Shown here piece by piece: positions 961-23,301 of a stretch of 23,863 nucleotides of DNA. The stretch covers positions 1 to 23,863 of IMG/VR virus record IMGVR_UViG_3300043409_001739; one strand, written 5' to 3'. Position numbers and translations under genes: made by a program. How positions within the stretch are numbered: the stretch's first letter is position 1; every line of letters begins with the position of its first letter. Source of the stretch: a virus. A model generated the notes under the pieces. It searched no databases, was not told the origin of the DNA, and saw only the letters and a list, made by a program, of their open reading frames with translations.

Positions 961-968
961 TGTAAATA
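961..968 (+). promoter_or_regulatory. T4-late-type promoter octamer TGTAAATA
   Basis: TGTAAATA matches TATAAATA at 7 of 8 positions and ends only four bases before the ATG of the lipoprotein gene. If it acts as in T4, the transcript would start essentially at the start codon. It is preceded by a GT dinucleotide run. The rest of the 804-960 gap contains no gene that I can see. Confidence 0.45.
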
Positions 969-972
969 ATGA

Positions 973-1362
973 ATGCGATCACTCTTATTCATTTTAGTCA
1001 TCACTCTGCTCACAGCGTGTACCAGCACTAATACTATAAGAACTCCCCGTGCGCTAGAAGCCGCAACTGCTGATACTGTCACTACTGCACATGCTCTAGC
1101 ACAGGGAGGGCGAGAGCTTAATCCCTTGGGCTTTTGGGGAGTGCTGGCTGCTAAGGCTGGTTATTTCATGCTATCCACACCCCAACAACGGACTCTGCAT
1201 GATCCCTTGGTCAGTCAGTTATGGACCACAGCCGCTGTTAACAATGCTCTACAGTTAGCATTCGCAGGCACAGCGCCCGTAGTCTTCACTCTGGCTCTGG
1301 GCTATATTATAGTTGATGGGTGGTTTAAATATGAAGAGAGGATAGCTAAGACGGGGCCTTAA
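973..1362 (+). CDS. small phage lipoprotein with a DUF5658-like membrane domain
   Basis: This 129-residue protein starts with a basic residue and a hydrophobic stretch leading to the lipobox LLTAC (residues 12-16), so C16 should be lipidated after signal peptidase II cleavage. The mature part has the pattern D-x-x-TT-x6-GG-x-E-x-NP followed by hydrophobic segments (about 52-66 and 95-115). To me this resembles membrane proteins of the DUF5658 type, where a D..TT and an E.NP motif flank the first helix. ATG 973 is chosen over ATG 969 because only this frame stays open. Phage lipoproteins often take part in outer-membrane disruption (o-spanin) or in superinfection exclusion, but the integral membrane segments make a simple o-spanin unlikely. 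Function unknown. Confidence 0.6.
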   Translation: MRSLLFILVITLLTACTSTNTIRTPRALEAATADTVTTAHALAQGGRELNPLGFWGVLAAKAGYFMLSTPQQRTLHDPLVSQLWTTAAVNNALQLAFAGTAPVVFTLALGYIIVDGWFKYEERIAKTGP

Positions 1363-1380
1363 AAATTTTTACGCACAATT

Positions 1381-1397
1381 TTTTTGCTCCGCAAAAA
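1381..1397. repeat. AT-rich inverted repeat between convergent genes
   Basis: TTTTTGC (1381-1387) and GCAAAAA (1391-1397) pair around TCC. The stem has only two GC pairs and no proper T tract on either exit side, so it is at best a weak bidirectional terminator between the convergent genes ending at 1362 and 1428. Confidence 0.3.
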
Positions 1398-1427
1398 GAA
1401 ATCTGTGGGTATTGTGTGGGCCCGGTA

Positions 1428-1661
1428 TTAAAGAGCCTTATCGCAAAGTTCTGCAAAAGTACTGTTTATAACTATACCATCGTTGGCAATGGCATATCCA
1501 AAAGTAAGATCTATCTTGGCAGTTGGGGGTGTTAATGGATCCAAACTCAATGGAGGTACTTCTACATATAGTTGTCCATATGCTTCGTTGGCTGTTGCGT
1601 ATGCAGTATCAGTATACGTCAACTGATTGCTGTCTGTAAATACTCTAACTGTATATTGCAT
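1428..1661 (-). CDS. hypothetical small phage protein
   Basis: This 77-residue protein starts at an ATG with AGGAG about nine bases upstream, one of the better ribosome-binding sites in this part of the window. The sequence is Thr/Ala/Tyr-rich with alternating polar and hydrophobic residues, suggesting a small beta-rich fold. No cysteine motif beyond one Cys near the C-terminus, no signal peptide and no membrane segment is seen. The leader contains a GTGTGT/ACACAC hairpin just downstream of a late-promoter-like octamer. No family is recognised. Confidence 0.6.
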   Translation of the reverse strand: MQYTVRVFTDSNQLTYTDTAYATANEAYGQLYVEVPPLSLDPLTPPTAKIDLTFGYAIANDGIVINSTFAELCDKAL

Positions 1662-1690
1662 TCTAGTGCTCCTGGTGTAATAAAGGGTGT

Positions 1691-1710
1691 GTGTGTTGTA
1701 TATTACACAC
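1691..1710 (-). promoter_or_regulatory. leader hairpin upstream of the 77-residue gene
   Basis: Read on the minus strand, GTGTGT (1710-1705) pairs with ACACAC (1696-1691) around an 8-base loop. With the octamer at 1718-1725 the predicted transcript starts near 1712, so this hairpin would sit almost at the 5' end of the mRNA. Confidence 0.4.
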
Positions 1711-1717
1711 TGGCATA

Positions 1718-1725
1718 TATTTAGT
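1718..1725 (-). promoter_or_regulatory. T4-late-type promoter octamer ACTAAATA
   Basis: The site matches TATAAATA at 6 of 8 positions, keeping the TAAATA core. It lies 57 bases upstream of the ATG at 1661, giving a predicted leader of about 51 bases that holds both the hairpin and the AGGAG site. Confidence 0.45.
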
Positions 1726-1733
1726 TTAACTAG

Positions 1734-2375
1734 TCAAGACCAGCTAGGGAATACTTCCCGTGCAAATGCTTGATGTTGTTCCAAATTCGGGTGCTGGTTT
1801 GTGCTAAATCCACGCCTAATTCTGAATTGATCAAGAGATTCTTTGTGATCCAATAGGTCATATATTTCCCGCACCTTTTGCACATCCAGTGCCGTTAATC
1901 CCAATAGATCACTGTGGGATTCGTAATGGCTATTGTCCAGGCCCATGACGAGGTCATGCCCGCAATTCCGATTGATCAGCAGGTGTTTGATAGACTGGAC
2001 AGCTACCCAGGACTGCTCCACTGCCATTCTGGCACTCCACATGTGATCACGGAATGACCGTACCCATGGCAAGTTTGTTTGGGCATCTTGGCTTTCCACC
2101 CAAGTATCTAGGTCTCCGTGGGTATGCCAATCTTGCCCGTCATTGGCCAGCCAATTGAATCTATTGAATCCCGTCAACATGACTGCCACATGATCATCTA
2201 CTTGGAATTTGTGCTCAGCATCCGCTTCAAGGACTTGGTGCAGGATCATCATGTTACTCATCCCACCACGACCAAAGTTATGGAATTGATCAAACCTGGG
2301 CGCTATGCAGTCAGCCCAAGTTGGCCCGCTATAATTTGTATAACTACAGCCAAAAACAAATAATCGCTTGTTCAT
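1734..2375 (-). CDS. SGNH/GDSL-hydrolase-like phage protein
   Basis: This protein has 213 residues when started at the ATG at 2375. A longer GTG-started form from 2423 is possible but adds a segment that overlaps the promoter motif. The N-terminus reads MNKRLFVFGCSYT, with the GCS in the place of the GDS block I of SGNH esterases. An FGRGGMSN segment about 30 residues later resembles block II (Gly) and a hydrophobic strand ending in TGFNR resembles block III. A clear C-terminal DxxH block was not identified, so catalysis is uncertain. Proteins of this kind occur in marine phages and in host surface-glycan loci, where they may act on acyl groups of polysaccharides. It is a single-gene unit with its own late-promoter-like octamer. 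Confidence 0.6.
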   Translation of the reverse strand: MNKRLFVFGCSYTNYSGPTWADCIAPRFDQFHNFGRGGMSNMMILHQVLEADAEHKFQVDDHVAVMLTGFNRFNWLANDGQDWHTHGDLDTWVESQDAQTNLPWVRSFRDHMWSARMAVEQSWVAVQSIKHLLINRNCGHDLVMGLDNSHYESHSDLLGLTALDVQKVREIYDLLDHKESLDQFRIRRGFSTNQHPNLEQHQAFAREVFPSWS

Positions 2376-2382
2376 ATATCTA

Positions 2383-2390
2383 TATTTAAC
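2383..2390 (-). promoter_or_regulatory. T4-late-type promoter octamer GTTAAATA, near-leaderless
   Basis: Seven bases separate the octamer from the ATG at 2375. With T4 late geometry, transcription would begin about two bases before the start codon. No Shine-Dalgarno sequence is present. Confidence 0.45.
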
Positions 2391-2412
2391 GACTACTGAT
2401 TTGGCATGAAAA

Positions 2413-2420
2413 ATTAAATA
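2413..2420 (+). promoter_or_regulatory. T4-late-type promoter octamer ATTAAATA, near-leaderless
   Basis: The octamer is followed by CACTTGTT and then the ATG at 2429. Predicted transcription starts about three bases before the start codon. The same arrangement, TAAATAC plus YTTGTT before ATG, recurs before the gene at 7414. Confidence 0.45.
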
Positions 2421-2428
2421 CACTTGTT

Positions 2429-2683
2429 ATGATCGCACTCTACGATAGATTCGTTGACGATTTACCCTACCACGCTCGCGCACCCTGGCCCCGTATCGAA
2501 CGCAACGGTAACTGGGACTGGATTGAATCTGCTGGCAGTGTGGAACTATGGTTAATGACCAGCGTGGGATCACACTACACTGAATGGGCATGGAGCATGT
2601 GGGATTCGTGTGATAGCTATCATTGTAGAGTTAGCTTCCGACGGGCTCGGTCAGTTAGCCTGTTTTTATTGAGATTTGGTTAA
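2429..2683 (+). CDS. hypothetical Trp-rich small protein
   Basis: This 84-residue protein is unusually rich in tryptophan (residues 20-58 hold most of them) and in Ser and Arg near the C-terminus. No family is recognised. It is called a gene because a late-promoter-like octamer lies at a conserved distance from its ATG and because no competing gene occupies either strand. It has no Shine-Dalgarno sequence, in keeping with the near-leaderless arrangement. Weaknesses are the lack of a recognisable domain and the arginine/serine-rich tail, which could be translated noncoding sequence. Confidence 0.45.
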   Translation: MIALYDRFVDDLPYHARAPWPRIERNGNWDWIESAGSVELWLMTSVGSHYTEWAWSMWDSCDSYHCRVSFRRARSVSLFLLRFG

Positions 2684-2695
2684 TTGTTTACCTTC

Positions 2696-2723
2696 TTGAC
2701 CGCGAATAGATAAGTAATACTAT
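2696..2723 (+). promoter_or_regulatory. possible sigma70-type promoter
   Basis: TTGACC (2696-2701) and TACTAT (2718-2723) are separated by 16 bases. The -10 box is only a 4/6 match. It would serve the GNAT-like gene starting at 2742 and be used early, by unmodified host polymerase. Confidence 0.3.
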
Positions 2724-2741
2724 ATTGGGGTGGTTGGATGG

Positions 2742-3209
2742 ATGGCGGCGTTACACGTGATAAAATTGTTGACAGATCCCTTGCTAAATCTTTTGGCAGA
2801 CGATCCCGTGAGACCCGAGATACCCGCAGACTTCCGTGTAAGTGATTCAAGCGAAGTCTTTGTCCTACAAGATAAAGAAACTTTGGAACCCCAAGCAGTG
2901 GTCTGTGTTGTCTATACTGATCGTGTGCCCGCAGACATACTTGAACTGGCCTGGGTACCCGAGCTGGATCTAACACATGCCATATTCTATACCATATGGA
3001 GTTACAAGCCCGGTGCAGGTCGAGAACTTATCATGGCCGCTAGTCGAGCGATCAAACGGACTCGTCCGGGGATCTCTGAGTTTGTTACCCTAAGTCCCCC
3101 AACTGAAATGGCACGCCGCTTCCATCTTAAAAATGGTGCTAGCGAATGGCGCAAGAATTACGATACAGTTAACTACCGCTATCAGCTAGCCATCGAATCC
3201 GAAGACTAA
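2742..3209 (+). CDS. GNAT-like acetyltransferase
   Basis: This protein has 155 residues from the ATG at 2742; a GTG at 2730 is in frame but adds only four residues, and GGGGTGG lies about nine bases before the ATG. The central part has a GNAT layout: beta strands ending in a YKPGAGRELI segment that fits the acetyl-CoA pyrophosphate loop (R/QxxGxG/A), then a helix, a strand, and FHLKNGA, which matches the FYxKNGF motif near the end of the fold. It could acetylate an amine on a protein, small molecule or aminoglycoside-like substrate; the target cannot be told. Its 3' end overlaps the convergent nucleotidase gene by 24 bases. Confidence 0.6.
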   Translation: MAALHVIKLLTDPLLNLLADDPVRPEIPADFRVSDSSEVFVLQDKETLEPQAVVCVVYTDRVPADILELAWVPELDLTHAIFYTIWSYKPGAGRELIMAASRAIKRTRPGISEFVTLSPPTEMARRFHLKNGASEWRKNYDTVNYRYQLAIESED

Positions 3210-3740
3210 CGAGAACGCTCGTTCTAGATGTTCCAATGCCTCTTCTGGATCTTCTGCTAATACCTGTATGGCACGACCGCCGGCTCTGCGCCATTCTTCA
3301 CAGTTACCCACACGATCATCTACTAGTATATCTCCGGGGCTACATTGCTTATGCTTGTCGTGACTATATGGACCAAAGTGTACTCTAAAGCCTGCATCGG
3401 GCCATCGTTCGGTAAACCAATCAATCTTATCATGGAAAGCCGCGGGCATGTCGTTACCCCGCGGAATAGCGGACAGTAGTCGAACACGCCATCCCAGTTC
3501 ATTCTGGAATCTTAACGCCAGGTCAATTACACGATCTGCTATGGCAGTTTTGGGCAAGTTCCTATAGAAGTTTTGATCGTCTACAAGGCGGCGCCATTGA
3601 TCTTCGGGCCATCGTCCTCGCTTTTCAGTTTGCGCCACTTCTTCGGGCGGCGCTCCAAGTAGTTCTGCGGCTCTAGCATTAAAATCTGCTAGAACTCCGT
3701 CCATGTCTAAGTAAAGAGTAAATTTTTGTTGAGTTGTCAT
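3186..3740 (-). CDS. 5'(3')-deoxyribonucleotidase-like HAD phosphatase
   Basis: This 184-residue protein has the motifs of the HAD superfamily in order. Motif I is DMDGV with D12 (nucleophile) and D14 (acid/base), motif II is S90 after a hydrophobic strand, a lysine near 129-131 fits motif III, and motif IV is the D141-D142 pair in ILVDDR. The size and the short cap insertion after motif I fit the NT5C family, which removes phosphate from deoxyribonucleoside monophosphates. In a phage it would trim nucleotide pools or help replace a normal base, working alongside DNA synthesis. It has its own late-promoter-like octamer and, upstream of that, a strong terminator isolating it from the next gene. 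Composition is GC-richer than the genes to the right. Confidence 0.8.
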   Translation of the reverse strand: MTTQQKFTLYLDMDGVLADFNARAAELLGAPPEEVAQTEKRGRWPEDQWRRLVDDQNFYRNLPKTAIADRVIDLALRFQNELGWRVRLLSAIPRGNDMPAAFHDKIDWFTERWPDAGFRVHFGPYSHDKHKQCSPGDILVDDRVGNCEEWRRAGGRAIQVLAEDPEEALEHLERAFSLVFGFDG

Positions 3741-3748
3741 TATATGTG

Positions 3749-3756
3749 TATTTAAT
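3749..3756 (-). promoter_or_regulatory. T4-late-type promoter octamer ATTAAATA, near-leaderless
   Basis: The octamer is followed by CACATATA and then the ATG at 3740, so the predicted mRNA starts about three bases before the start codon. It lies immediately downstream of a terminator for the preceding gene. Confidence 0.5.
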
Positions 3757-3759
3757 AGA

Positions 3760-3781
3760 AAAAAGGGCCGAAGCCCTTTTT
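3760..3781 (-). terminator. Rho-independent terminator with TTCG tetraloop
   Basis: On the minus strand AAAAAGGGC and GCCCTTTTT form a perfect 9-bp stem closed by a TTCG loop, the extra-stable C(UUCG)G type. The T tract is part of the right arm. It terminates the 97-residue gene (3805-4098) and may also work on the plus strand (CGAA loop). Confidence 0.9.
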
Positions 3782-3804
3782 ATGAATTGAAATATAATTT
3801 ATTA

Positions 3805-4098
3805 CTAAATTTCAGTAATCGTTGGCTTCGTTGTAGTAATGCCGTTTGCTTTTAGGTAGGCTTTGCGTTGGATAGCCCATTCTTTTACTGCTGAATTATT
3901 ATTGAATTCATCATAAGCAGCCTGATTGATCCATTCTGAGGTAACAGTCTGTGTCAGCCCGGCAACTACTCTCGTTATGCTAAGTCTCTTACCGGTATCG
4001 GCAAAATTTGCTTTTATAGTTGCATTAGCATCAGTAGAACCTTCAAAAAAACGAACCTCAGTAGTTGGTCTTACAAATGTTTTAGTTACTCGAATCAT
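3805..4098 (-). CDS. hypothetical conserved-looking small phage protein
   Basis: This 97-residue protein starts at an ATG with AAGGGG about eight bases upstream. It is an alpha/beta protein with no Cys and no membrane segment. An N-terminal strand-rich half (phages often use this size for virion accessory or regulatory proteins) is followed by a WINQAAYDEF helix and a basic helix ending in YLKANGI. I do not recognise a named family. It forms a complete one-gene transcription unit, with a perfect TATAAATA promoter in front and a TTCG terminator behind, so it is probably made in large amounts late in infection. That makes a structural or assembly role possible but unproven. Confidence 0.65.
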   Translation of the reverse strand: MIRVTKTFVRPTTEVRFFEGSTDANATIKANFADTGKRLSITRVVAGLTQTVTSEWINQAAYDEFNNNSAVKEWAIQRKAYLKANGITTTKPTITEI

Positions 4099-4128
4099 GG
4101 TTGTTCCCCTTGTTAATTCTCTTGCTAT

Positions 4129-4145
4129 TATTTATGTTATTTATA
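4129..4145 (-). promoter_or_regulatory. T4-type late promoter TATAAATA with a second CATAAATA copy
   Basis: TATAAATA at 4138-4145 (minus strand) is a perfect match to the T4 late consensus and is preceded by C. CATAAATA follows at 4129-4136. From the perfect site the predicted mRNA has a leader of about 34 bases that contains the AAGGGG ribosome-binding site of the gene starting at 4098. Confidence 0.75.
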
Positions 4146-4171
4146 GTTTTATCCTGCCTCAATTTGATTCC

Positions 4172-4179
4172 GATAAATA
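4172..4179 (+). promoter_or_regulatory. T4-late-type promoter octamer GATAAATA
   Basis: The site matches TATAAATA at 7 of 8 positions and faces the cupin gene. Predicted leader length is about 16 bases, with only a weak GAGTAA as ribosome-binding site. It is back to back with the minus-strand pair at 4129-4145. Confidence 0.55.
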
Positions 4180-4200
4180 TTAGTTTAGAGTAACCCATTC

Positions 4201-4812
4201 ATGCTATCATATTCATTTTATTCCACAGACACCCCTGTAATAATCGAGTCAAAAGACTTTGATTTATATGCATATCGGGTTTACATAGGAAAGCACGATG
4301 TGCCTGTTGACAAGTTTAATAGTTATTGGTATATCCAGGGAGATTTGGTAATATCCGGAACTAGTAATTTACCAATTCATAGTGAAAGGGTATGTGTTGA
4401 AATTATTGGATATCGTCCAGAAACTAGATCTAGTACATTTTCTAGATATACTGATTTGCCTTATATTAACGGATGTAGCACCAAACAACTAATTCCGCCA
4501 AATCGAGCAGGAGACCCCACATGGCAAATGTTATTAATCCCGCCGTTTACTAGCGAACAGCAACATCACATACATTCAACAGGTCGGGTAGTATATGTAC
4601 ACAGTGGGCAAGGAACGAGTCATATCGGGTCTTCGGGTAAAACAGTAGAGTTTCCGTTGACACCCGGAATGGTATTAATACTTGACAAAATGATTCCCCA
4701 TCATTTTAGTACAAACGACGAGAGTCTAATAGTCCTGCCTCTTCATATTTTTAGTAGCAGTCCATTTGAAAACAATCATCCCATGTTCAACGGTACTTAC
4801 AAGACTGAATAA
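4201..4812 (+). CDS. cupin-fold protein
   Basis: This 203-residue protein has a C-terminal cupin barrel. Motif 1 has H123 and H125 in an HxH followed by a strand and GQG; motif 2 has PGMVLI, then P166-H167-H168 and N172. These give a plausible metal site. The first roughly 95 residues are a separate beta-rich part that may be a second, degenerate cupin half. Cupins include isomerases, dioxygenases, epimerases and simple binding proteins, so the reaction cannot be told. It converges with the asparagine-synthase-like gene, with one base between the two stops, but they are on opposite strands and need not be co-expressed. It is AT-richer than the genes to its left. Confidence 0.75.
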   Translation: MLSYSFYSTDTPVIIESKDFDLYAYRVYIGKHDVPVDKFNSYWYIQGDLVISGTSNLPIHSERVCVEIIGYRPETRSSTFSRYTDLPYINGCSTKQLIPPNRAGDPTWQMLLIPPFTSEQQHHIHSTGRVVYVHSGQGTSHIGSSGKTVEFPLTPGMVLILDKMIPHHFSTNDESLIVLPLHIFSSSPFENNHPMFNGTYKTE

Positions 4813-4813
4813 T

Positions 4814-5944
4814 TTAAATAAAATCATTCATATCATTCCAACAATCACTTGGATAGACAGTATCGTAAAATACTCCGTTACTATCGATACATTTGGCAAT
4901 GTGTTTACCTGTTACTACTCGTATTAAACTACCAAATTTAGTTTTATTATCTCGATAGTTTTCGTCCGGATTAACTTCAAATATCACTTCTTTACATTTC
5001 CATTTATAGCTAGCCCAAGTTTCTCTAATTAACTGGTCGGGATGCCGCATCACCCATTTTTGAAAATCCGGAGCATGAAAAAATGTAAAATAATTGTCTT
5101 CAATTTTAACGGTTGATCTAAACTTAGGAGAAGTATAAGCAACCATACGCATATAAACACTTTGCCATTTTAGTGTAAAGTTTAGCCACCAAAAATATTG
5201 GTTCACTGTTTCTATTTTCATGGGAGCACTGTTAACAACACGATTAAACAATTCGGTTATTTTTTCACTCTTTTCTCGATCGTGAACTGATTCATTTATA
5301 AGTTCTGATATTAAACTTGAGGTAGGAGTTGCTGTTATAATATCAGGGCCTTTCTTAAGAACGAACCGATGCATAACTGCTGATCCAAATAACTGATCAT
5401 TGCCCTCTCCGGTAACTACGATGTATTTTGGGTTTCCTAAAAAATTTTGAAATGCATATCCCGATTCTAAAGTAAACTTTTTTAAAACATGATTTCTATA
5501 AAAAGTAGGATTTTCATCAATACTAGTGTTAGTCAGCAATACTACTATGTTGTTTTTTAGTTCTTCAACGGTGCCGACCATAATGAAACTTGATAATATT
5601 AAAGTGCTATCAATACCTCCACTATACATCACTACTATTTTTCTATTTGTGTTTTGAGCGTAGTCTAAAAACCATCTTGCCCGTGCCTGACATATATCAG
5701 TAAAGTCTAAACTAAAATTTGGATCGTAGTTGGGCAATTTGCAACAATCTAACAACTGCATGTTTAGTGGAGTTGTTAAAGTTTTAGTCCGATCTACTAG
5801 AGAAAGGTTGGCAGCAAAGATACGAAACATATATTGAAATAAATCAAACCCCGGTTTTTCATTTACAAATTCTGCATATAAATTACTTTTTTCCGGATGA
5901 AATAGATCAACTGAATTATAAAATATTAGATTAGAGTCTGCCAT
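4814..5944 (-). CDS. asparagine-synthase-like ATP pyrophosphatase without glutaminase domain
   Basis: This protein has 376 residues from the ATG at 5944, which has AAGGAG eight bases upstream; an alternative start nine codons earlier is less likely. The P-loop of N-type ATP pyrophosphatases is SGGIDS (108-113), after strand IVVMY. The second signature TGEGNDQLFG (about 178-187) matches the SGEGxDELFGG of asparagine and beta-lactam synthetases. Such enzymes adenylate a carboxylate and transfer an amine. The usual N-terminal glutaminase domain with catalytic Cys2 is absent and is replaced by about 100 unrelated residues, so it would use free ammonia, a partner amidotransferase or an internal amine. 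It overlaps the upstream 244-residue gene by 14 bases, which suggests coupled expression. The substrate is unknown. Confidence 0.8.
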   Translation of the reverse strand: MADSNLIFYNSVDLFHPEKSNLYAEFVNEKPGFDLFQYMFRIFAANLSLVDRTKTLTTPLNMQLLDCCKLPNYDPNFSLDFTDICQARARWFLDYAQNTNRKIVVMYSGGIDSTLILSSFIMVGTVEELKNNIVVLLTNTSIDENPTFYRNHVLKKFTLESGYAFQNFLGNPKYIVVTGEGNDQLFGSAVMHRFVLKKGPDIITATPTSSLISELINESVHDREKSEKITELFNRVVNSAPMKIETVNQYFWWLNFTLKWQSVYMRMVAYTSPKFRSTVKIEDNYFTFFHAPDFQKWVMRHPDQLIRETWASYKWKCKEVIFEVNPDENYRDNKTKFGSLIRVVTGKHIAKCIDSNGVFYDTVYPSDCWNDMNDFI

Positions 5945-6665
5945 ATACTTCTCCTTCTTTATAAAAATCATTTAAAATTGGGTGTAGTTGCTGTACATCA
6001 GAACAATCTTTTATTTTTCTAAGATATTTTAATCTAAGCATTTCTGTATTCAACATACGAGTTTGAAAAAATTTATCCTGTATGTTTATACTTTGTGCGG
6101 CAGTCTGTAGGTCAATGCCCTCAAATTCAGCATAGGCTTCTGTAAAAGGAAAGTCGCCGTTCATGTCTGTAATTTTATTTTTTATTATCTCCAAAGACTC
6201 GTTTGCTTTTAATCGATATATGTCCTGTTGAAACAAATAATCATGACTGAACATTCTGCGATAATGTTGTAGTTTATGCAATATGATATCTAGTACCGCT
6301 GCCTTTTCTGCTATTAGTATATAGAAGTATTTTTCATCAAAGGTTAATGAAGGATCGGATTTTAGATATTTTATTTGAGAGCTATCCCACTGCCATAACC
6401 AAGGGTTACTGGAATCAAAATCTTTAGTAATGACCGAGCCAGTGACAGAGTTGACCCAAAAGCGTTGAGTTGTATTCAGGGTACTTTCTGCAAGTATATT
6501 AGGAACCGCTTCCCAATAACTAATACACAATGGTCTACCGGTTGGAATGTGAATTAGACTGTGATATTTTACACCTGCTAATGTAAAGTCAATTGTTCTT
6601 TTAAATCGATAAGTTTTTTTTAACTTTGTTAATTCATCAAATTGTTGTTGAGATGTAATATTCAT
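5931..6665 (-). CDS. hypothetical protein coupled to the asparagine-synthase-like gene
   Basis: This 244-residue protein has an N-terminal beta-rich half with many aromatic residues (Trp at about 51, 70, 89 and 91) and an entirely helical, charged C-terminal half. A FPFTEAYAEFEGID segment followed by TAAQSI near residues 173-192 resembles short helical repeats seen in phage tail-assembly-type proteins, but that likeness is weak. No catalytic motif is visible. Its start codon lies exactly where the late-promoter octamer at 6671-6678 would begin the transcript, and it overlaps the ATP-pyrophosphatase gene by 14 bases. It may be the amine donor, the substrate or a binding partner of that enzyme; this is inference from gene order alone. 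Confidence 0.65.
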   Translation of the reverse strand: MNITSQQQFDELTKLKKTYRFKRTIDFTLAGVKYHSLIHIPTGRPLCISYWEAVPNILAESTLNTTQRFWVNSVTGSVITKDFDSSNPWLWQWDSSQIKYLKSDPSLTFDEKYFYILIAEKAAVLDIILHKLQHYRRMFSHDYLFQQDIYRLKANESLEIIKNKITDMNGDFPFTEAYAEFEGIDLQTAAQSINIQDKFFQTRMLNTEMLRLKYLRKIKDCSDVQQLHPILNDFYKEGEVYGRL

Positions 6666-6670
6666 ACGAA

Positions 6671-6678
6671 TATTTATC
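6671..6678 (-). promoter_or_regulatory. T4-late-type promoter octamer GATAAATA, exactly leaderless
   Basis: Five bases (TTCGT) separate the octamer from the ATG at 6665, so T4 geometry puts +1 on the A of the start codon. It sits in the 20-base gap between two genes on the same strand. Confidence 0.55.
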
Positions 6679-6685
6679 TGCGTAC

Positions 6686-7381
6686 TTAACTGATACTTAA
6701 TTCTTGATCATGTAGTCTATCAATTAGTATTGAGATGCCCTGTATTACTTGATCATTGCGTAGGCTTTTGTAGACCAGATTTGGTATACTAAATTCACCC
6801 TCGGGCTTTTTCAAACCCAGCTTTCTATACTGCCTTAATAGTTTTAATGCATTTCGACAGGTCCGCAGATCACCGGTTTTAATTGCTTGCCGGAATATTT
6901 TTTTCCAAATTGCAACCCAATGTGCTAGTTCTTTTTCGTTATATTTTGGTAAATCTTGTTGTGGCTTTTTGATCCAGTTGCCCGATAACACACTGTATGC
7001 TCCTGCGCTAACTGCGGGCATACGATGATCTTCTACATACAACTCTACAGGTATTCCGTGGATAGATAAATCGTATTGTCGTTTGTATAAGAGTCGCTTG
7101 CTATCAAACAGTTCTGCAACTTCGCGATCGCATCTAACTTGATCAAAGTCTGCGATTAGATGTAGATCAATATCACTGTGTTCCGTATAGTTGTAGTTAA
7201 CATTGCCGCCGGTAATAACAACATCTGCGGCCTCAAACGGCACTCCGATAAATTCTTTAAAATCTTCAGCCATGCGTAGTAAGGCGCCCCTAACATTGCT
7301 TTTGAGACGATTATTATCCCAAATTGCGGGATTCAGTACAGTATTGTACTCTACAGGTTTTGCGTATTCGTTTTGGATCAT
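6686..7381 (-). CDS. pol-beta-fold nucleotidyltransferase
   Basis: This 231-residue protein has the nucleotidyltransferase signature GGNVNYNYTEHSDIDL (about 58-73): the Gly-Gly helix-capping pair, then D70 and D72 as metal ligands. E113 in VELYVED is a likely third carboxylate on the neighbouring strand. The rest is helical. The pol-beta superfamily transfers nucleotides to RNA ends, proteins, antibiotics or other nucleotides. Here the short loop between GG and DxD and the C-terminal helices do not point to one subgroup. Comparable predicted nucleotidyltransferases are common in T4-like aquatic phages. It lies upstream of the 244-residue gene on the same strand, but a promoter between them allows independent expression. 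Confidence 0.75.
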   Translation of the reverse strand: MIQNEYAKPVEYNTVLNPAIWDNNRLKSNVRGALLRMAEDFKEFIGVPFEAADVVITGGNVNYNYTEHSDIDLHLIADFDQVRCDREVAELFDSKRLLYKRQYDLSIHGIPVELYVEDHRMPAVSAGAYSVLSGNWIKKPQQDLPKYNEKELAHWVAIWKKIFRQAIKTGDLRTCRNALKLLRQYRKLGLKKPEGEFSIPNLVYKSLRNDQVIQGISILIDRLHDQELSIS

Positions 7382-7388
7382 ATACGGA

Positions 7389-7405
7389 TATTTATGCGGT
7401 AAATA
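7389..7405. promoter_or_regulatory. back-to-back divergent late-type promoters
   Basis: CATAAATA on the minus strand (7389-7396) and GGTAAATA on the plus strand (7398-7405) are separated by one base, forming an inverted TATTTA/TAAATA repeat. The start codons lie seven bases (ATG 7381) and eight bases (ATG 7414) beyond the octamers, so both transcripts are predicted to start within four bases of their ATG. Confidence 0.55.
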
Positions 7406-7413
7406 CTTTTGTT

Positions 7414-7974
7414 ATGACATCAAATAAAAAATATCCCGGCTATCTACTTGTAGCCAATCCCAATAATCCCCGTGACGAACTTGGCAAGAGTGTAATGCTG
7501 ATAGTTAGCCACACAGATAAGTTAAGCATTGCCCTACAAGTTAATAATCCTGTAGAAGATGTTAATTTACAAACAATAGCATATAACATAGGATTGGAAA
7601 GTTATCCAAGAGAAGATTTGGTTTACTTTGGCGGTAATATAGCACAGAATAAGATCCATGTGATACATAGCAATGATTGGAAAGGAATGAGCACAACAAA
7701 ACTTAACGATCAGATTAGTGTTACCAATGATGTAAGTGTGTTGGCGGCCCTTAGCAGGAATGAAGGACCGGAACACTTTAGAGCCTGTGCAGGTTATTGG
7801 TTATGGGACAATGGTATGTTAGATGACATGCTAGATCCCCGTGATAGAACTTATCCACATAAGTGGGAAATAACTCCTGCTACTGTTGACGGTATATTTG
7901 ACGGAGAAGGACCTGAACAATGGCGAGCCGCAGTAGATAACGCTGCCAAATATCAGGTCAATGCTTGGTTTTAA
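7414..7974 (+). CDS. YqgE/AlgH (UPF0301)-family protein
   Basis: The ATG at 7414 gives 186 residues and starts MTSNKKYPGYLLVANP; a longer reading from 7324 would run through the promoters and is rejected. The family hallmarks are present in order: the N-terminal G-x-LL-x-A-x-P, the SVMLIVSH strand, a short Asn-Pro loop, YFGGNIAQ in the place of the family's GGPV, HVIHS, and near the C-terminus a GYWLWDNGMLDDML helix matching GYAGWGxGQLExEL. The bacterial family is widespread, and its biochemical role is poorly defined (AlgH affects transcription in Pseudomonas). A phage copy may mimic or interfere with the host protein. Its stop shares TTAA with the convergent helicase gene. Confidence 0.75.
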   Translation: MTSNKKYPGYLLVANPNNPRDELGKSVMLIVSHTDKLSIALQVNNPVEDVNLQTIAYNIGLESYPREDLVYFGGNIAQNKIHVIHSNDWKGMSTTKLNDQISVTNDVSVLAALSRNEGPEHFRACAGYWLWDNGMLDDMLDPRDRTYPHKWEITPATVDGIFDGEGPEQWRAAVDNAAKYQVNAWF

Positions 7975-9443
7975 TCTTTCTCAGGATTTAGGTTAGGCAT
8001 ATTATTAACCCATTGCCTAATTAGCGGAGCAGGAGTAGCAGATTTATTCAGCTTGAGATTTGCACCTTGCTTAGGATCCACTTCTATAATTTCCCCGGTG
8101 TCCGGATCAGTAGTAGTACTTACAGAGCTAGTCCTCTTAAGATTGCTATAAATTCCGACCGCAGGGCTTTGTGGTTTACCACCACCACCCTGACTATAGC
8201 TTGTACTATCTGCTTCATCTCCAAGATCACTAATCCGTAGAGTATCAATGTTAAACTCTAGGTCTACCTTTTGTCCAACGCCACTGCTTGACCGAGTTTT
8301 CATAAACTGGATTTGGAAGCGGCCCCGCTCTTTCATAGCCCTGCTAGTAAAGATACCAATTACATTATCTGCAGTCATGATCTTACTCAAGCCACCTGAA
8401 ATATGGCTGTGATCAAACTCAATCTCTTCTACAGCACTACGATTCAACTGTGATGCTGTTACCGTAATACATTGCGTCTCCATTGCTAGGTTTCGAATTT
8501 CTTCTGACACATATTTGTCTTTTACGAACAGATCGCTGGGCGATACCTTCACACTTAAAGGCATCATCAAATCGAGGTAATCTATTAACAAAACATCCGG
8601 TTTCCGACCAGTTTTAACTTGATATTCCTTCAAATAGGCTCGTAAATCGTTACAATTTTTCCCCGAAGGCATGTACTTAACTTGTAGGCTTCCCGACTTT
8701 TTACCCAACATTCTAACCTTTAATTCAACATCGTCGATGTTCTTAAAGATATCACGAGTACTAATACCAGTAGTCATGCTGTCAAGCCGCATACTAACCA
8801 ATCCCTCATTCAACTCGAAAGTTAGATAAACAACATTCAAACCAGCCAGTACCCAGTTCAACCCCAAGTTAGCAAGGAACAATGATTTACCGCCACCCGA
8901 TCCTGCACAGAACATGTTTAACTCACCGCGGTTAAATCCACCATAGAGTTTCTTATCAATGCTAGGCCATCCTGTACTAACCTGCCCGTTGCCATCTTTA
9001 AGTTTAGTTAATCGAGCCCGAGGGTCATCAAAGTAGTCTGTACCCATATCTTTGTTTAGACTAATTTGAATAGCATCCTTAATCAGCTTTTCAACTGGGC
9101 CGTAATCACCTGCTTCAAGTAAATCGCTACTTTCAATAATAGCTCGCTCTAATCCTTTGTGTCGACTAAAGTTTTCAAACTCATCCATCAACCAATCGTA
9201 ATTTTCTTTTGGTAGTTGTACCGATTCAAATTGACTCTTAGTTGAAGCATTAACGATGCTAACTTCGGGCATGACTTTATATTCGTCAACATAGTTGCTG
9301 ATGAATTCAGCAGAATCTTGTAATCGCTGATCAAAGTTTTTTGGATCAAATATATTTTGACACCGGATGAAAGTTTCTGCATCTCCAAGAAACATTTCAA
9401 GATATAATTTCTGCATTGCATGGTCGTAATTTGGTTTATTCAT
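7971..9443 (-). CDS. 41: replicative DNA helicase (T4 gp41-like, DnaB family)
   Basis: This 490-residue protein is the hexameric 5'-3' helicase that unwinds the fork and partners the primase. The helical N-terminal domain covers about 1-130 and a linker leads to the RecA-like domain. Seen motifs are STGWPSIDKKLYGG (156-169, DnaB H1 region), Walker A GSGGGKS (181-187), catalytic E210 in YLTFE, Walker B with D288 in LLIDYLD, and a TASQLNR sensor segment. The C-terminus has a Gly/Pro-rich tail after about residue 400. It starts in an 8-base overlap with the primase gene, so the two are translationally coupled, and converges with the YqgE-like gene with a 4-base overlap. Confidence 0.95.
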   Translation of the reverse strand: MNKPNYDHAMQKLYLEMFLGDAETFIRCQNIFDPKNFDQRLQDSAEFISNYVDEYKVMPEVSIVNASTKSQFESVQLPKENYDWLMDEFENFSRHKGLERAIIESSDLLEAGDYGPVEKLIKDAIQISLNKDMGTDYFDDPRARLTKLKDGNGQVSTGWPSIDKKLYGGFNRGELNMFCAGSGGGKSLFLANLGLNWVLAGLNVVYLTFELNEGLVSMRLDSMTTGISTRDIFKNIDDVELKVRMLGKKSGSLQVKYMPSGKNCNDLRAYLKEYQVKTGRKPDVLLIDYLDLMMPLSVKVSPSDLFVKDKYVSEEIRNLAMETQCITVTASQLNRSAVEEIEFDHSHISGGLSKIMTADNVIGIFTSRAMKERGRFQIQFMKTRSSSGVGQKVDLEFNIDTLRISDLGDEADSTSYSQGGGGKPQSPAVGIYSNLKRTSSVSTTTDPDTGEIIEVDPKQGANLKLNKSATPAPLIRQWVNNMPNLNPEKD

Positions 9444-10437
9444 TTAGGCCCTCTAATTTTTTCTTCAGTAGATTTATTTTTATCTCTCCAGAGACTCTAT
9501 AGTGTAAGATCGTGGTCAATACATAGATGCGTCCATACTTACGGACTGCTTCTGCTATATCTTTTACATCGTCACCCCAAGGTGGTAAGCTAACTGACCA
9601 ATTGTGTTTGATGGCATGCTTTAGCATCTTAGCACCAGGACGATCGCGATCGGGTACAACAATAACTTCTCTAGCTAATGCATTTATCCTTAGCACTTGG
9701 GCATCGTTTGGTTCATTAGTCATTATGCCAACGCCGTCTACGGCAATGGCATCAAACTGCCCTTCGACTACTATAACATATCGGCGGTTCCAATCTTGGC
9801 GGTCTATGTTGAAAACATACCCGCTTTGACTGTCCGTAAGATACTTTGGTTTACCATCTGTTATCTTTCTCCCAGTATATCCAACTATCTTTCCGTCCTG
9901 ATAGAACGGAATCAACACCCTGTCTACATAACCGGGAGCAGGTGACCACATCCAGTTGTACCAATCTAGATCCATTCCGCGGCCTAGTATATATTCTATT
10001 ACTTTACCAATGTCTTCACTTATGTCAGGAAGATACGCAGTGTTAATCCATTCCATAACAGACAGCGATCCTTCGGGTAATTCTGTTTCTTTAAGGTTGA
10101 GATTTAATACCCTTTCTGCTTTGGGCATATTCTCTTGATGCTTGAGCGCAACAAGGCCTAACTTACCTATGTCTAGGTCGGTTAATCCCAACCATTTAAA
10201 TAGGAGTTTAGTATTGCCACTTAATAGTTTGCCCGGACTCCATCCTGCTTTAAAACCACAATTGAAGCAGTGATAGGTCCAAGAGTCGCTATTAGATATT
10301 ATGCCGCCTCGGTTCTTTGTGTCCGGATTCTCACCTTTGTGGTGACAGCAGACGGCATTGAAACTAACCCACCCACCGGATGTGTTTTTTCTATTATGCG
10401 GTAAAAGACTTAGAAGTGTAGACTGTATTTCGTTCAC
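9436..10437 (-). CDS. 61: DNA primase (T4 gp61-like)
   Basis: This 333-residue protein makes RNA primers for lagging-strand synthesis with the gp41 helicase. The N-terminal zinc module has C30/C31, H33, C57 and C60 (CxHxnCxxC). The Toprim core has the VVEGQFDA block with E225 and the VVPDRDRPG block with D263 and D265, the metal-binding acidic residues. A GRGMDLDW segment near 152-159 precedes the core. The start is GTG at 10437, nine bases after the stop of the preceding gene, with only a weak upstream ribosome-binding site, so translation is probably coupled to that gene. The downstream helicase start lies inside its last codons. Confidence 0.92.
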   Translation of the reverse strand: MNEIQSTLLSLLPHNRKNTSGGWVSFNAVCCHHKGENPDTKNRGGIISNSDSWTYHCFNCGFKAGWSPGKLLSGNTKLLFKWLGLTDLDIGKLGLVALKHQENMPKAERVLNLNLKETELPEGSLSVMEWINTAYLPDISEDIGKVIEYILGRGMDLDWYNWMWSPAPGYVDRVLIPFYQDGKIVGYTGRKITDGKPKYLTDSQSGYVFNIDRQDWNRRYVIVVEGQFDAIAVDGVGIMTNEPNDAQVLRINALAREVIVVPDRDRPGAKMLKHAIKHNWSVSLPPWGDDVKDIAEAVRKYGRIYVLTTILHYRVSGEIKINLLKKKLEGLNE

Positions 10438-10446
10438 ACTTACATA

Positions 10447-11289
10447 TTAACATCTATATAGGACCTTGTCAAATGAACCGTAGTATTCTGGATTATTATT
10501 AACAGATTCGCTTGGCGCAACAGCAGGCTGGAAAGTGAATCGAACAAAGCTGAATATACCGTTAAAGTTCACATAATCAATTCCGGTAAAACCGTTGTAC
10601 TCTCGAGTTTCAATGGTAACATATCGATCGAATGTAGCAGGACTGTTATATAATGTTCCTTCAACAGAAACTGTACCAATAAAATTGGTCATATACATTG
10701 CGGCGGTATGTAATGCTGTATTACTGTTGTATTCTGGGTAAGCGTAGATGTTTCCGCTCTTATGTTGATATAAACCTATCGAATCGTTATAAACTCGATT
10801 ATACGCCACTACTTCTTGGCTTGGCTGTAGGTTTGGATAAACATCTTGTAGTAGAGTTAATGTCCCTGCTACACCGTAATAGGTGTTGCTGTATGCGGGC
10901 AAGTAGGTGTGATCATCTGGATCCAGATACTTGACGGAATATTGATAGTTACCAACATCCAAGTCCATAGTATCACTTTCAGTTAGGGTAAATTCTGCTA
11001 GTCCTCTTAGAGAAAAGGTATCACCGTCATCTAAGACAGTTAATTCTTTTTCTAATAGTAGCCGTTGGTTGGTTGCATCAAATAAGGAAAACACATAGAC
11101 ATCAGAATCACTAAGGGTAATCCGCTTTTGATCGCTGTTTTTTACTTGGACACGGATCTTATTTTTTATGCCCTTCTGTATTTTTAGTTCGCGCTGATAC
11201 ATAATCCGATTAACTCCCTTGACTGTTGAATCCAGATCTAATATCACCCCGAGGGTGTTTGGATATAAATAGATTGGTAAATTTTGCAT
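10447..11289 (-). CDS. probable phage virion or baseplate-type structural protein
   Basis: The ATG at 11289 gives 280 residues. A TTG nine codons earlier is in frame but lies in the promoter and is rejected. The protein is nearly all beta-strand, rich in Thr, Tyr, Asn and Ser and free of catalytic motifs. The N-terminal half (about 30-135) looks like an immunoglobulin-like sandwich with KIQKG and RVQVKNSD strands ending in GNYQYSVKY, a pattern common in baseplate and fibre-attachment proteins of marine myoviruses. The C-terminal half is a second beta domain. The late-promoter octamer fits a structural role. Oddly, it lies directly upstream of the primase gene, so late readthrough would also make primase and helicase. 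Confidence 0.6.
   Translation of the reverse strand: MQNLPIYLYPNTLGVILDLDSTVKGVNRIMYQRELKIQKGIKNKIRVQVKNSDQKRITLSDSDVYVFSLFDATNQRLLLEKELTVLDDGDTFSLRGLAEFTLTESDTMDLDVGNYQYSVKYLDPDDHTYLPAYSNTYYGVAGTLTLLQDVYPNLQPSQEVVAYNRVYNDSIGLYQHKSGNIYAYPEYNSNTALHTAAMYMTNFIGTVSVEGTLYNSPATFDRYVTIETREYNGFTGIDYVNFNGIFSFVRFTFQPAVAPSESVNNNPEYYGSFDKVLYRC
11264..11271 (+). promoter_or_regulatory. T4-type late promoter TATAAATA inside the opposing gene
   Basis: This perfect consensus on the plus strand lies within the first codons of the minus-strand structural gene. It would start a transcript near 11277 and give a 33-base leader for the plus-strand gene at 11310. The first part of that RNA is antisense to the 5' end of the structural gene's coding region. 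Confidence 0.5.
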
Positions 11290-11296
11290 TATAGAG

Positions 11297-11304
11297 TATT
11301 TATT
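11297..11304 (-). promoter_or_regulatory. T4-late-type promoter octamer AATAAATA, near-leaderless
   Basis: The site matches TATAAATA at 7 of 8 positions. CTCTATA separates it from the ATG at 11289, so the predicted mRNA begins two bases before the start codon. No Shine-Dalgarno sequence is present. Confidence 0.55.
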
Positions 11305-11309
11305 GAAGA

Positions 11310-11690
11310 ATGACAACTAAAACAAACACCTTTCAAGAAAACTATCCATTTATTTCATGTATCAAAAGTAATGATATTGAGTATGTAGGCATCGTTATAA
11401 ATTTAGATAACTTTGTAGCTAGTATCTACGATATCTCTACTATTAGGTCCGAAGACGAGCGTACTCTATTTTTAGAAATGGGGGAAACTTGGTGGTGGGA
11501 AAGCAACCGTAGAATACCCATTAATATATTCCTAAAAAAAGAAATGCAATTTTTTAGATACACTATTAAGACATTTAATAGCAAAGATGCTGAGCTTATA
11601 TTTGGCCCAACAGTTAATCTAAGTGAAATAGCAGAAAAACGCATTAAGAGAAGATCTATACAACTAGTTAGAGTTCCCTCTAAGCGTTAA
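11310..11690 (+). CDS. hypothetical small phage protein with WWWES motif
   Basis: This 126-residue protein has a beta-rich N-terminal half, a striking ETWWWESNRRIPINIF segment at about 51-66, and a basic C-terminal tail (KRIKRRS). The WWW cluster followed by a conserved-looking Arg-Arg-Ile-Pro suggests a small beta barrel with an aromatic binding face and a basic surface, possibly for RNA or DNA. I have an impression of similar uncharacterised proteins in T4-like aquatic phages but cannot confirm it. It is a lone plus-strand gene between two minus-strand operons. Its stop codon shares TTAA with the convergent DnaE-like gene. Confidence 0.65.
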   Translation: MTTKTNTFQENYPFISCIKSNDIEYVGIVINLDNFVASIYDISTIRSEDERTLFLEMGETWWWESNRRIPINIFLKKEMQFFRYTIKTFNSKDAELIFGPTVNLSEIAEKRIKRRSIQLVRVPSKR

Positions 11691-12265
11691 CTGTATTCGT
11701 AACTAATTCCCTCGCAGATCAAGTTCATCTGAACTACAATTGCCATTGCATAGGCTATAGCGTGGGCTTTCTTGAAATGGTACTCACCGTTCGTCGGTTT
11801 CTCCCATATCTGATTCATAATATCGATCTTCGTCATCTCTTGTAGGTGTCGCTTCCCTGGGCGGATCAAGGCTAGGCACACGGCCACCTCTTCTACACTC
11901 TTCGGCTTCTGCGTCCGTAGTAAGTCGCCATACCCGCTTATGTGAAACAATAAATTCGTGAAACTGTCGTCCTGTAGTAAATCCCATAGTGGTTCAGTCT
12001 CCATTAGTCTGGTGAGGTGTGCTTCGTCTTTTATACCGCTATACATGCTAACATTTAAAAAATCAAGTTTAAAGTAGCCACGGTCTTCAGCTTCTTTGTA
12101 TTCTATGCTTGCAGTACCAGTCAGTGGATTAACTGGAATAGAAGTGCAATATACTCCGGTATTGTGCTTTTTAAAAGTACCATTTGTTTCTATTGCCGCA
12201 GGGACATGTTTGATTACATCAAGGATTTTTGTTCTATCAGCAAAGTCTATATCAATATCTGGCAT
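11687..12265 (-). CDS. very small DnaE-like (DNA polymerase III alpha) catalytic-core protein
   Basis: The ATG at 12265 gives 192 residues; it follows GAAGAAATTGAAA inside the end of the heptose kinase gene (14-base overlap). Segments of bacterial DnaE appear in the right order: PDIDIDF (residues 2-8; counterpart of the first two catalytic Asp), HNTGVYCTSIPV (hPsGVVI), GYFKLDFLNV with D68 (third catalytic Asp), LLFHISGYGDLL (FQxES-type), ALIRPG (132-137) and KKAHAIAYA (165-173; counterpart of the SHaaAYA block). Missing are the PHP domain, most of the thumb and fingers, the clamp-binding and OB regions; spacing between motifs is shortened everywhere. It may be a minimal nucleotidyltransferase or a regulatory decoy. 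The open frame and coupled start argue against a dead remnant. Confidence 0.75.
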   Translation of the reverse strand: MPDIDIDFADRTKILDVIKHVPAAIETNGTFKKHNTGVYCTSIPVNPLTGTASIEYKEAEDRGYFKLDFLNVSMYSGIKDEAHLTRLMETEPLWDLLQDDSFTNLLFHISGYGDLLRTQKPKSVEEVAVCLALIRPGKRHLQEMTKIDIMNQIWEKPTNGEYHFKKAHAIAYAMAIVVQMNLICEGISYEYS

Positions 12266-13046
12266 TTTCAATTTCTTCTAAAGTTGGAGCATAGTTTCCA
12301 CGATGTTGAACAGTAACACCTGCCGCCATATTTGCATATATTATAGCGTCATTAATCTTATGTGTAAAGAGGTATTTATATGCAAACGCTGCCAGGAATG
12401 TGTCTCCGCAGCCGCACACATCCACGACTTCTACCTGGGTGGTACTATAGGTCACTTCTTCGCAGCCTAATCTATAAATTGTAGCACCTCGATCACCAAT
12501 AGTGACAATTAAGTTTTGAGGAATGGAAAATCTATTCTTATATTCCAATTCGTTTATCTTAACATACACATGAGGAGCACTGAATCTAGATAAGTCTTGT
12601 TTTTTGGTATCAATGAACACAGGGCAGTTAACTGTACGAATAATGGTCTCTATGTGCTCGTAGCTCAGAAAACCTTTGTTGTAATCTGATATTATAACAG
12701 CGTCATATTCTTCTATGGGAAAAGGAGTACGACCACTCCATGGAACAATTTTTGGTTCGTCGTCTACCCTCAGTAGATGTTGTCCAGATCTTTTATCAAT
12801 ATATCTAGTTTTTGTAACCGTTTCTCCGTTTGTAATAAAGTCAGCTTCAATTCCTAATGCCTGCAGGTTAGCATGTACATTACTGGCCATTCCCGGAGCA
12901 GAATAGTGTTGTACTAATTTTATTACTGGTACTGGTGCTTCCGGACTTAGTCGGTCAACCGATCCCACCATATATACATCTAGGCAACTATCACCTATCA
13001 ATAATACGCTGAATGATTTCTGTTGTTGAATGTTCTGTTCTATCAT
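12252..13046 (-). CDS. hldA: D-glycero-D-manno-heptose-7-phosphate kinase-like (HldE/RfaE domain I)
   Basis: This 264-residue PfkB/ribokinase-family kinase would phosphorylate heptose-7-phosphate at C1 to the 1,7-bisphosphate. The RfaE hallmark RLSPEAPVPV is at 32-41, with PGMASNV after it, SDYNKGFL at 120-127, DTKK at 146-149, and the catalytic anion-hole motif GCGD at 212-215 (normally GAGD) with base D215. It is shorter than the kinase half of bacterial HldE (about 315 residues), having lost internal segments. It overlaps the nucleotidyltransferase gene upstream by 56 bases and the DnaE-like gene downstream by 14 bases. The ATG at 13046 has only a weak ribosome-binding site, so it is likely coupled. 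PfkB kinases vary in substrate, so the heptose assignment relies on the RLSPEAPVPV motif and its neighbours. Confidence 0.82.
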   Translation of the reverse strand: MIEQNIQQQKSFSVLLIGDSCLDVYMVGSVDRLSPEAPVPVIKLVQHYSAPGMASNVHANLQALGIEADFITNGETVTKTRYIDKRSGQHLLRVDDEPKIVPWSGRTPFPIEEYDAVIISDYNKGFLSYEHIETIIRTVNCPVFIDTKKQDLSRFSAPHVYVKINELEYKNRFSIPQNLIVTIGDRGATIYRLGCEEVTYSTTQVEVVDVCGCGDTFLAAFAYKYLFTHKINDAIIYANMAAGVTVQHRGNYAPTLEEIENARY

Positions 13047-13383
13047 AAAATTTTATTTCTTTACAAAGACTTTCTCCTACTATAGGTTTTCCTATGTAGT
13101 CGCTACCTTTAACCATGATATTTGGCTTGTACATTTCTATTATTTCAATAAGCTCTTCTGTGCTATCAAAGAACTTTACGATGTCTACACATTTCAAACT
13201 TTGAAGAACAAATGCCCTATCTTGCTGATTGTTAATTGGTCTTGTTGGGCCTTTTAATTTTGTTACTCTACGATCGGTATCAATACATACTAATAACTGA
13301 TCACCTAGACTCTTGGCATATTCAAGCATTTCGATATGTCCACGATGTAAGATATCAAAGGTGCCGTTTACAACTATCGTCAT
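12991..13383 (-). CDS. hldC: heptose-1-phosphate nucleotidyltransferase-like (HldE/RfaE domain II)
   Basis: This 130-residue cytidylyltransferase-family protein would join a nucleoside monophosphate to heptose-1-phosphate to give ADP- or CDP-heptose. Seen motifs are NGTFDILHRGH with H13 and H16 (HxGH nucleotide-binding motif), a VCIDTD strand, RPINNQQDRAF at about 48-58, VKGSDY, and a C-terminal STTEII matching the ISTT-type motif. In many bacteria this domain is fused behind the kinase as HldE; here it is a separate gene placed before the kinase, so the order is inverted. It begins in a 4-base ATGA overlap with the epimerase gene. The nucleotide choice (ATP or CTP) cannot be read from sequence. 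Confidence 0.82.
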   Translation of the reverse strand: MTIVVNGTFDILHRGHIEMLEYAKSLGDQLLVCIDTDRRVTKLKGPTRPINNQQDRAFVLQSLKCVDIVKFFDSTEELIEIIEMYKPNIMVKGSDYIGKPIVGESLCKEIKFYDRTEHSTTEIIQRIIDR

Positions 13384-23293: not shown

Positions 23294-23301
23294 TATTTAT
23301 A
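23294..23301 (-). promoter_or_regulatory. T4-type late promoter TATAAATA before gp32
   Basis: This perfect consensus on the minus strand directs a transcript starting near 23288 with an 84-base leader ahead of the gp32 ATG. It is the only late-promoter octamer seen for the gp32-uvsX-uvsY group. Confidence 0.75.

Follow-up and report, generated by a model that had tools for sequence, protein, structure and literature searches.

Predicted leaderless late genes behind closely placed T4-type late promoters in uncultured giant phages

In a group of uncultured giant phages, a conserved set of late genes very likely carries a T4-type late promoter placed so that transcripts start at, or just before, the AUG and are read as leaderless mRNAs. 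This reading rests on sequence and on T4 biochemistry, without mapped 5' ends. The hexamer TAAATA would be the core of the promoter, read by the host RNA polymerase together with a phage gp55-like sigma factor. In the short arrangement, with the box 4-9 bases ahead of the start codon, transcription is predicted to begin at the A of the AUG or up to about 3 nt before it, and the mRNA, without leader or Shine-Dalgarno sequence (SD), would have to be translated from its 5'-terminal AUG. In the long arrangement, where the box lies 17 or more bases upstream, a leader would be made, often with an SD. Intermediate spacings, at which the leader would be too short for an SD, are avoided.

The window (the whole 23.9 kb stretch of DNA analysed) is a fragment of an uncultured phage and encodes a DnaB-like helicase, a primase, UvsX, another DNA helicase and gp32-like proteins. 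No near nucleotide match to it was found among phage records. According to the helicase, the closest isolates are the PA5oct-type Pseudomonas jumbo phages (54%) and Atu_ph07 (51.5%), and the same protein is 76-99% identical in at least 80 environmental viral contigs. Host searches in genome collections returned just scattered MAG contigs with 51-63% helicase identity, and the host remains unidentified; an Rfam search of the window found no RNA family. The minus strand at 12252-14156 shows a cassette resembling ADP-heptose synthesis, with sugar kinase, heptose-phosphate adenylyltransferase-like and nucleotide-sugar epimerase genes, a gene content that suggests, as a possibility, a Gram-negative host or surface-sugar modification. 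Furthermore, the AlgH/YqgE-like gene at 7414-7974 (plus strand) is of host type and is conserved at about 69 related loci close to that of the helicase.

Distances are given as the number of bases between the last A of TAAATA and the ATG. In the window, eight of 35 ORFs have TAAATA 4-9 bases (actual range 4-8) before the most upstream in-frame ATG (Table 1), and none of the eight is preceded by an SD. A first-pass annotation of the window had described seven of these sites as nnTAAATA octamers 5 to 8 bases from an ATG and lacking an SD, and the one at 973 as similar. All of them exist as claimed; the spacing mostly held, the gene at 973, with 4 bases, falling just outside the range; and the octamer held only in part, the shared element being really a hexamer with loose flanks. 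An A is usual just before TAAATA and the first T of the octamer is frequently A or G; A at -13 is a known variant of T4 late promoters (PMC2988020). Orthologues in the data set support the short spacing of the genes at 7381, 7414, 11289 and 2429, and give no such support for those at 2375, 6665 and 3740 (singletons, or one of 36).

The window also contains boxes of the leadered class. The same annotation had assigned good ribosome-binding sites to the genes at 4098, 1661 and gp32, which held, with the start of the gp32-like gene corrected to 23204. No good SD was seen in the window copy of the leadered gene at 11310. This gene has its promoter (window 11266-11310) inside the virion gene on the opposite strand, and the leader sequence is the reverse complement of that virion gene's promoter region.

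Table 1. TAAATA boxes, the genes that follow them and one terminator in the window
Feature	Positions	Strand	Remarks
TAAATA box	963..968	+	4 bases to ATG at 973
Predicted leaderless gene, 129 aa, without family match	973..1362	+	short spacing in 2/3 orthologues
TAAATA box	2383..2388	-	7 bases to ATG at 2375
Predicted leaderless gene, 213 aa, without family match	1734..2375	-	without orthologue in data set
TAAATA box	2415..2420	+	8 bases to ATG at 2429
Predicted leaderless gene, 84 aa	2429..2683	+	short spacing in 5/7 orthologues
TAAATA box	3749..3754	-	8 bases to ATG at 3740
Predicted leaderless gene, 5'(3')-deoxyribonucleotidase-like	3186..3740	-	
Intrinsic terminator, GGGC-UUCG-GCCC stem and U run	3760..3781	-	-12 kcal/mol, z -4.1; abuts box of 3740 gene
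TAAATA box	6671..6676	-	5 bases to ATG at 6665
Predicted leaderless gene, 244 aa, without family match	5931..6665	-	
TAAATA box	7389..7394	-	7 bases to ATG at 7381
Predicted leaderless gene, phrog_36119 (unknown function), family F9	6686..7381	-	short spacing in 55/56 orthologues
TAAATA box	7400..7405	+	8 bases to ATG at 7414; back to back with 7389-7394
Predicted leaderless gene, AlgH-like (PF02622), family F5	7414..7974	+	short spacing in 56/69 orthologues; others truncated or at distance 10
TAAATA box	11297..11302	-	7 bases to ATG at 11289
Predicted leaderless virion structural protein gene, phrog_14467, family F2	10447..11289	-	short spacing in 72/76 orthologues; remaining 4 truncated
TAAATA box, leadered class	1718..1723	-	56 bases to ATG at 1661; SD AGGAG
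Two TAAATA boxes, leadered class	4129..4143	-	30 and 39 bases to ATG at 4098; SD AAGGGG
TAAATA box	4174..4179	+	21 bases to ATG at 4201; short leader, weak SD
TATAAATA box	11266..11271	+	38 bases to ATG at 11310; box at 17-60 bases in 70/71 orthologues
TATAAATA box of gp32-like ssDNA-binding protein gene	23294..23299	-	89 bases to ATG at 23204; strong SD AAGGAG

The simplest rival is that an AT-rich hexamer comes to lie near ATG codons by chance in an AT-rich genome, and the 38-43% G+C of the clade genomes speaks for it. This rival is all but excluded, since shuffles, permuted hexamers and conservation across families refute it. In 2000 dinucleotide shuffles of the same upstream sequence of the window, the mean was 0.29 short-spaced genes and the maximum four, against the eight observed; TAAATA is rarer than expected in the window as a whole (20 vs 34). 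In the clade, 142 short-spaced genes were observed vs a shuffle mean of 10.8 and a maximum of 19 (60 shuffles). The window together with 14 large relatives, about 1 Mb in all, contains 709 TAAATA sites. Counting sites whose ATG begins an ORF of at least 60 aa, these show a bimodal distribution of distances, with 159 at 4-9 bases, eight at 10-16 and 140 at 17-45, and a mode of 5. The refuting test proposed with the first-pass annotation, which asked for enrichment at 5-8 bases over whole genomes, was thus passed, with a peak at 5 and an almost empty interval at 10-16. The fraction at 4-9 bases is 22.4% for TAAATA vs 1.5% for the permuted AATAAT and 2.5% for the reversed-strand TATTTA; ATAAAT reaches 9%, and it overlaps TAAATA, many sites being common and shifted by one. 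Comparison phages show few TAAATA at 4-9 bases: six of 225 in T4, seven of 206 in P-SSM2, five of 611 in PA5oct and none of 168 in CBB.

The two classes also differ in their translation signals. An SD core is found in 2-4% of the short-spaced genes vs 41-51% of the genes with a box at 17-60 bases, and in 42-48% of clade genes without a nearby box, so the genes that are not short-spaced do use SDs in these phages. Start codons at distances 4-9 are ATG in 144 cases, GTG in four and TTG in two (ORFs of 100 aa or more). In addition, the first 40 nt fold more weakly in the short class (-2.13 vs -2.99 and -3.28 kcal/mol, P 0.013 and 0.0003).

When all ORFs were clustered, short-spaced members occurred in 63 families, and in the best conserved of them the spacing drifts just within 4-10 bases. 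Short spacing was found in 11 of 11 members of F32, 10 of 10 of both F36 and F40, nine of 10 of F37, eight of nine of F44 and 11 of 13 of F30, besides the window families F2, F9 and F5 (Table 1). The exceptions are truncated contigs, gene calls beginning elsewhere or a distance of 10, and all intact members of the conserved families keep the TAAATA core. PHROG matches and the place of the orthologues in PA5oct identify F32 as the terminase large subunit, F37 as the head-tail adaptor Ad2, F36 as tail-tube-like, and F30, F40 and F44 as virion proteins; by these identities the short-spaced families are late genes by kind. Strong SDs are kept in the clade by the sheath, the major capsid and the first tail-tube protein genes, and are lacking in those of the terminase, the head-tail adaptor and several other virion proteins. 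The late genes are therefore split into SD and no-SD classes in a conserved way.

A second rival holds that the box is not a promoter and acts instead as an A/U-rich translation enhancer within a longer mRNA coming from upstream, to which ribosomes bind without an SD. SD-independent initiation through A/U-rich leaders does exist, and some of the predicted leaderless genes trail a same-strand gene by a gap of only 4-24 bases. Against it, in all 25 members of three families (F32, F36 and F75), the U run of the intrinsic terminator of the upstream gene stops a few bases before the box; the hairpin before the terminase gene has -13.9 kcal/mol and a z of -5.6, and a terminator also abuts the box at 3740 in the window. 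Furthermore, 61 divergent pairs have both genes short-spaced and in 56 of them the ATGs lie 26-34 bases apart, as in the window pair 7381/7414, with 32 bases. There is no room for a leader in these places, because a leadered transcript would start inside the terminator or the opposite gene. Moreover, leadered genes have the same hexamer 17-45 bases upstream, and there the SD comes after the box. The enhancer is consequently an unlikely explanation.

In the 56 places with ATGs 26-34 bases apart, including window 7381-7414, the two polymerases at the opposing late promoters should exclude each other, so that transcription could begin at only one of the two genes at any moment. A different layout is seen in F30 and F40 (for example L091:5656 and L091:8545), where the upstream gene has its stop codon within the TAAATA box or next to it and the promoter is thus part of the gene junction. 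Read-through with reinitiation could possibly contribute in these two families.

The late-promoter reading gives a prediction for the transcription start. T4 late promoters span -13 to -6 (PMC2988020), which makes +1 the sixth base after TAAATA. By analogy with T4, the predicted +1 is the A of the ATG at distance 5, with a leader of 1-3 nt at distances 6-8; the exact start is thus inferred. The base before the ATG is T in 71-84% of genes at distances 5-9 vs 37-45% in the other classes, and G is rare; at distances 7 and 8 the fifth or sixth base following the box is an A, often in the form ACT-ATG. From sequence alone, this T at -1 and the placement of the A fit a pyrimidine-purine start at one of these two positions. 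A homologue of gp55 is present in the two largest relatives (G001, E 4e-27; G002, E 5e-26), in PA5oct (E 4e-18) and in CBB. The T4 family model of the gp45 sliding clamp matched T4 alone, not even PA5oct or CBB. The start rule is borrowed from T4 by analogy, and this search speaks neither for nor against activation through a gp45-like clamp.

It could also be argued that the boxes are -10 elements of host sigma-70 promoters, in which case the genes would be leaderless and not late, and TAAATA does have bases in common with TATAAT. We consider this very unlikely: no -35 hexamer (TTGACA) was found at 16-18 bases upstream of the boxes, the families include the terminase, the head-tail adaptor and virion proteins, and the relatives encode the gp55 homologue. 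Two other candidates were set aside. A TTGTCA-TATAAT match ending at 11288 places its -10 element on the ATG itself, and transcription from it would begin within the gene. Nor is a distinct consensus claimed for the promoters of the leaderless class, with [A/G]A preceding the box and T-rich sequence farther upstream, because a single family (F3, TATAAATA) contributes most of the T in the leadered class, and terminators and opposing boxes account for the T-rich stretch.

The last rival is that the starts are mis-assigned and the true ones lie farther downstream, at codons that have an SD and a normal leader. Of the 227 internal ATGs that lie in frame within 40 codons, 98 do have an SD-like core. 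However, substitutions in codons 2-16 fall mainly on third positions, and the matching start codon of F2, six residues before a conserved aromatic-x-aromatic motif, is common to the short-spaced phages and to CBB, XaC1 and Vibrio 2.275, which use it behind a leader. Both observations make mis-assignment very improbable, and the proposed start codons are likely to be authentic.

Family F2 also shows that the arrangement is not fixed. The PA5oct gene, PQE65_gp262 with the A of its ATG at record position 144985, reads TATAAATA-CGTGT-ATG, the leaderless arrangement, and the annotation of its product is that of a structural protein detected by mass spectrometry. In CBB, XaC1 and Vibrio 2.275 an SD accompanies the leader. 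Among PA5oct-like and marine relatives, the gene is short-spaced in eleven contigs and leadered in five (18-21 bases, with a purine-rich stretch before the ATG). Mapped on a helicase tree, these states require at least 3-4 changes, three of them forced by well-supported branches. F2 has therefore likely switched between the leaderless state, itself inferred, and a normal leader several times in evolution, with the reservation that the tree was made by a quick method and has some long branches.

Initiation directed by a 5'-terminal AUG and any difference in yield between the classes are inferred, and the ability of the host to translate leaderless mRNAs is unknown. In E. coli, leaderless initiation is weaker than leadered initiation, is stimulated by IF2 and is inhibited by IF3 (PMC4633059). 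Searches for phage-encoded helpers found neither bS21 nor IF3 in the incomplete contigs of the clade. An IF3-like protein is present in Atu_ph07 and CBB (L139, L142), and a bS21-like protein in PA5oct and Atu_ph07. CBB has a leadered F2 and the F2 start of Atu_ph07 is unclear; IF3 was not found in PA5oct either, and the sample is small. That the leader class controls protein amounts is a reasonable guess and no more than possible. A bolder reading takes the promoter-to-AUG spacing as a two-state translational switch, in which leaderless, low-yield mRNAs would serve low-copy parts (terminase, head-tail adaptor, minor virion proteins), SD-led, high-yield mRNAs would serve high-copy parts (capsid, sheath, tube), and lineages would flip genes from one state to the other; we regard this as possible but less likely than not. 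As for the interpretation in the first-pass annotation, the start of mRNAs at or near the ATG by T4 geometry is supported by sequence, with 5' ends unmapped; a leaderless or near-leaderless class of late genes beside an SD class is supported too, both classes existing and their division being conserved; and different expression of the classes is unproven. Overall, that interpretation was essentially right.

If the predicted leaderless state is correct, leaderless translation would be a design conserved across a large number of lytic late genes in abundant and widespread uncultured giant phages. The repeated gain or loss of a leader before one start codon would be a natural experiment on the worth of a leader, and direct testing is feasible, PA5oct being culturable. 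Gene finders that favor a ribosome-binding site may misplace such starts.

Leaderless mRNAs and T4 late promoters are each known, and no report of leaderless T4-type late genes was found in the open-access literature searched, outside which most subscription papers lie; their systematic combination is thus not described in the literature we searched. The likeness to T4 late promoters includes the TAAATA core, the absence of a -35 element, the late virion genes and the gp55 homologue; in T4, however, not one of the 32 TATAAATA sites has an ATG (ORFs of 60 aa or more) 4-9 bases after it, most being 17-45 bases upstream. Phage leaderless translation is mostly known from single genes, lambda cI being the textbook case. 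The short class resembles lambda cI and the leaderless mRNAs of mycobacteria in the expected start at or next to the AUG, the lack of an SD and the strong requirement for AUG. It differs in that a phage sigma factor would serve a whole group of lytic, late structural genes, in that the other genes of these phages use SDs, and in a predicted leader of about 1-3 nt in part of the class; furthermore, GTG works in mycobacteria (PMC4633059), whereas it is almost absent here. The late promoter motif TATG of phiKZ can likewise overlap the ATG, but it is another motif and belongs to another polymerase, the non-virion RNA polymerase of the phage, which starts at the G of TATG (PMC5312081). The Pseudomonas phage PA5oct (Arenbergviridae), with the Agrobacterium phage Atu_ph07 the nearest isolate, shares the leaderless arrangement of F2, while its F37, F40 and F44 orthologues have boxes 23-34 bases upstream and SDs.
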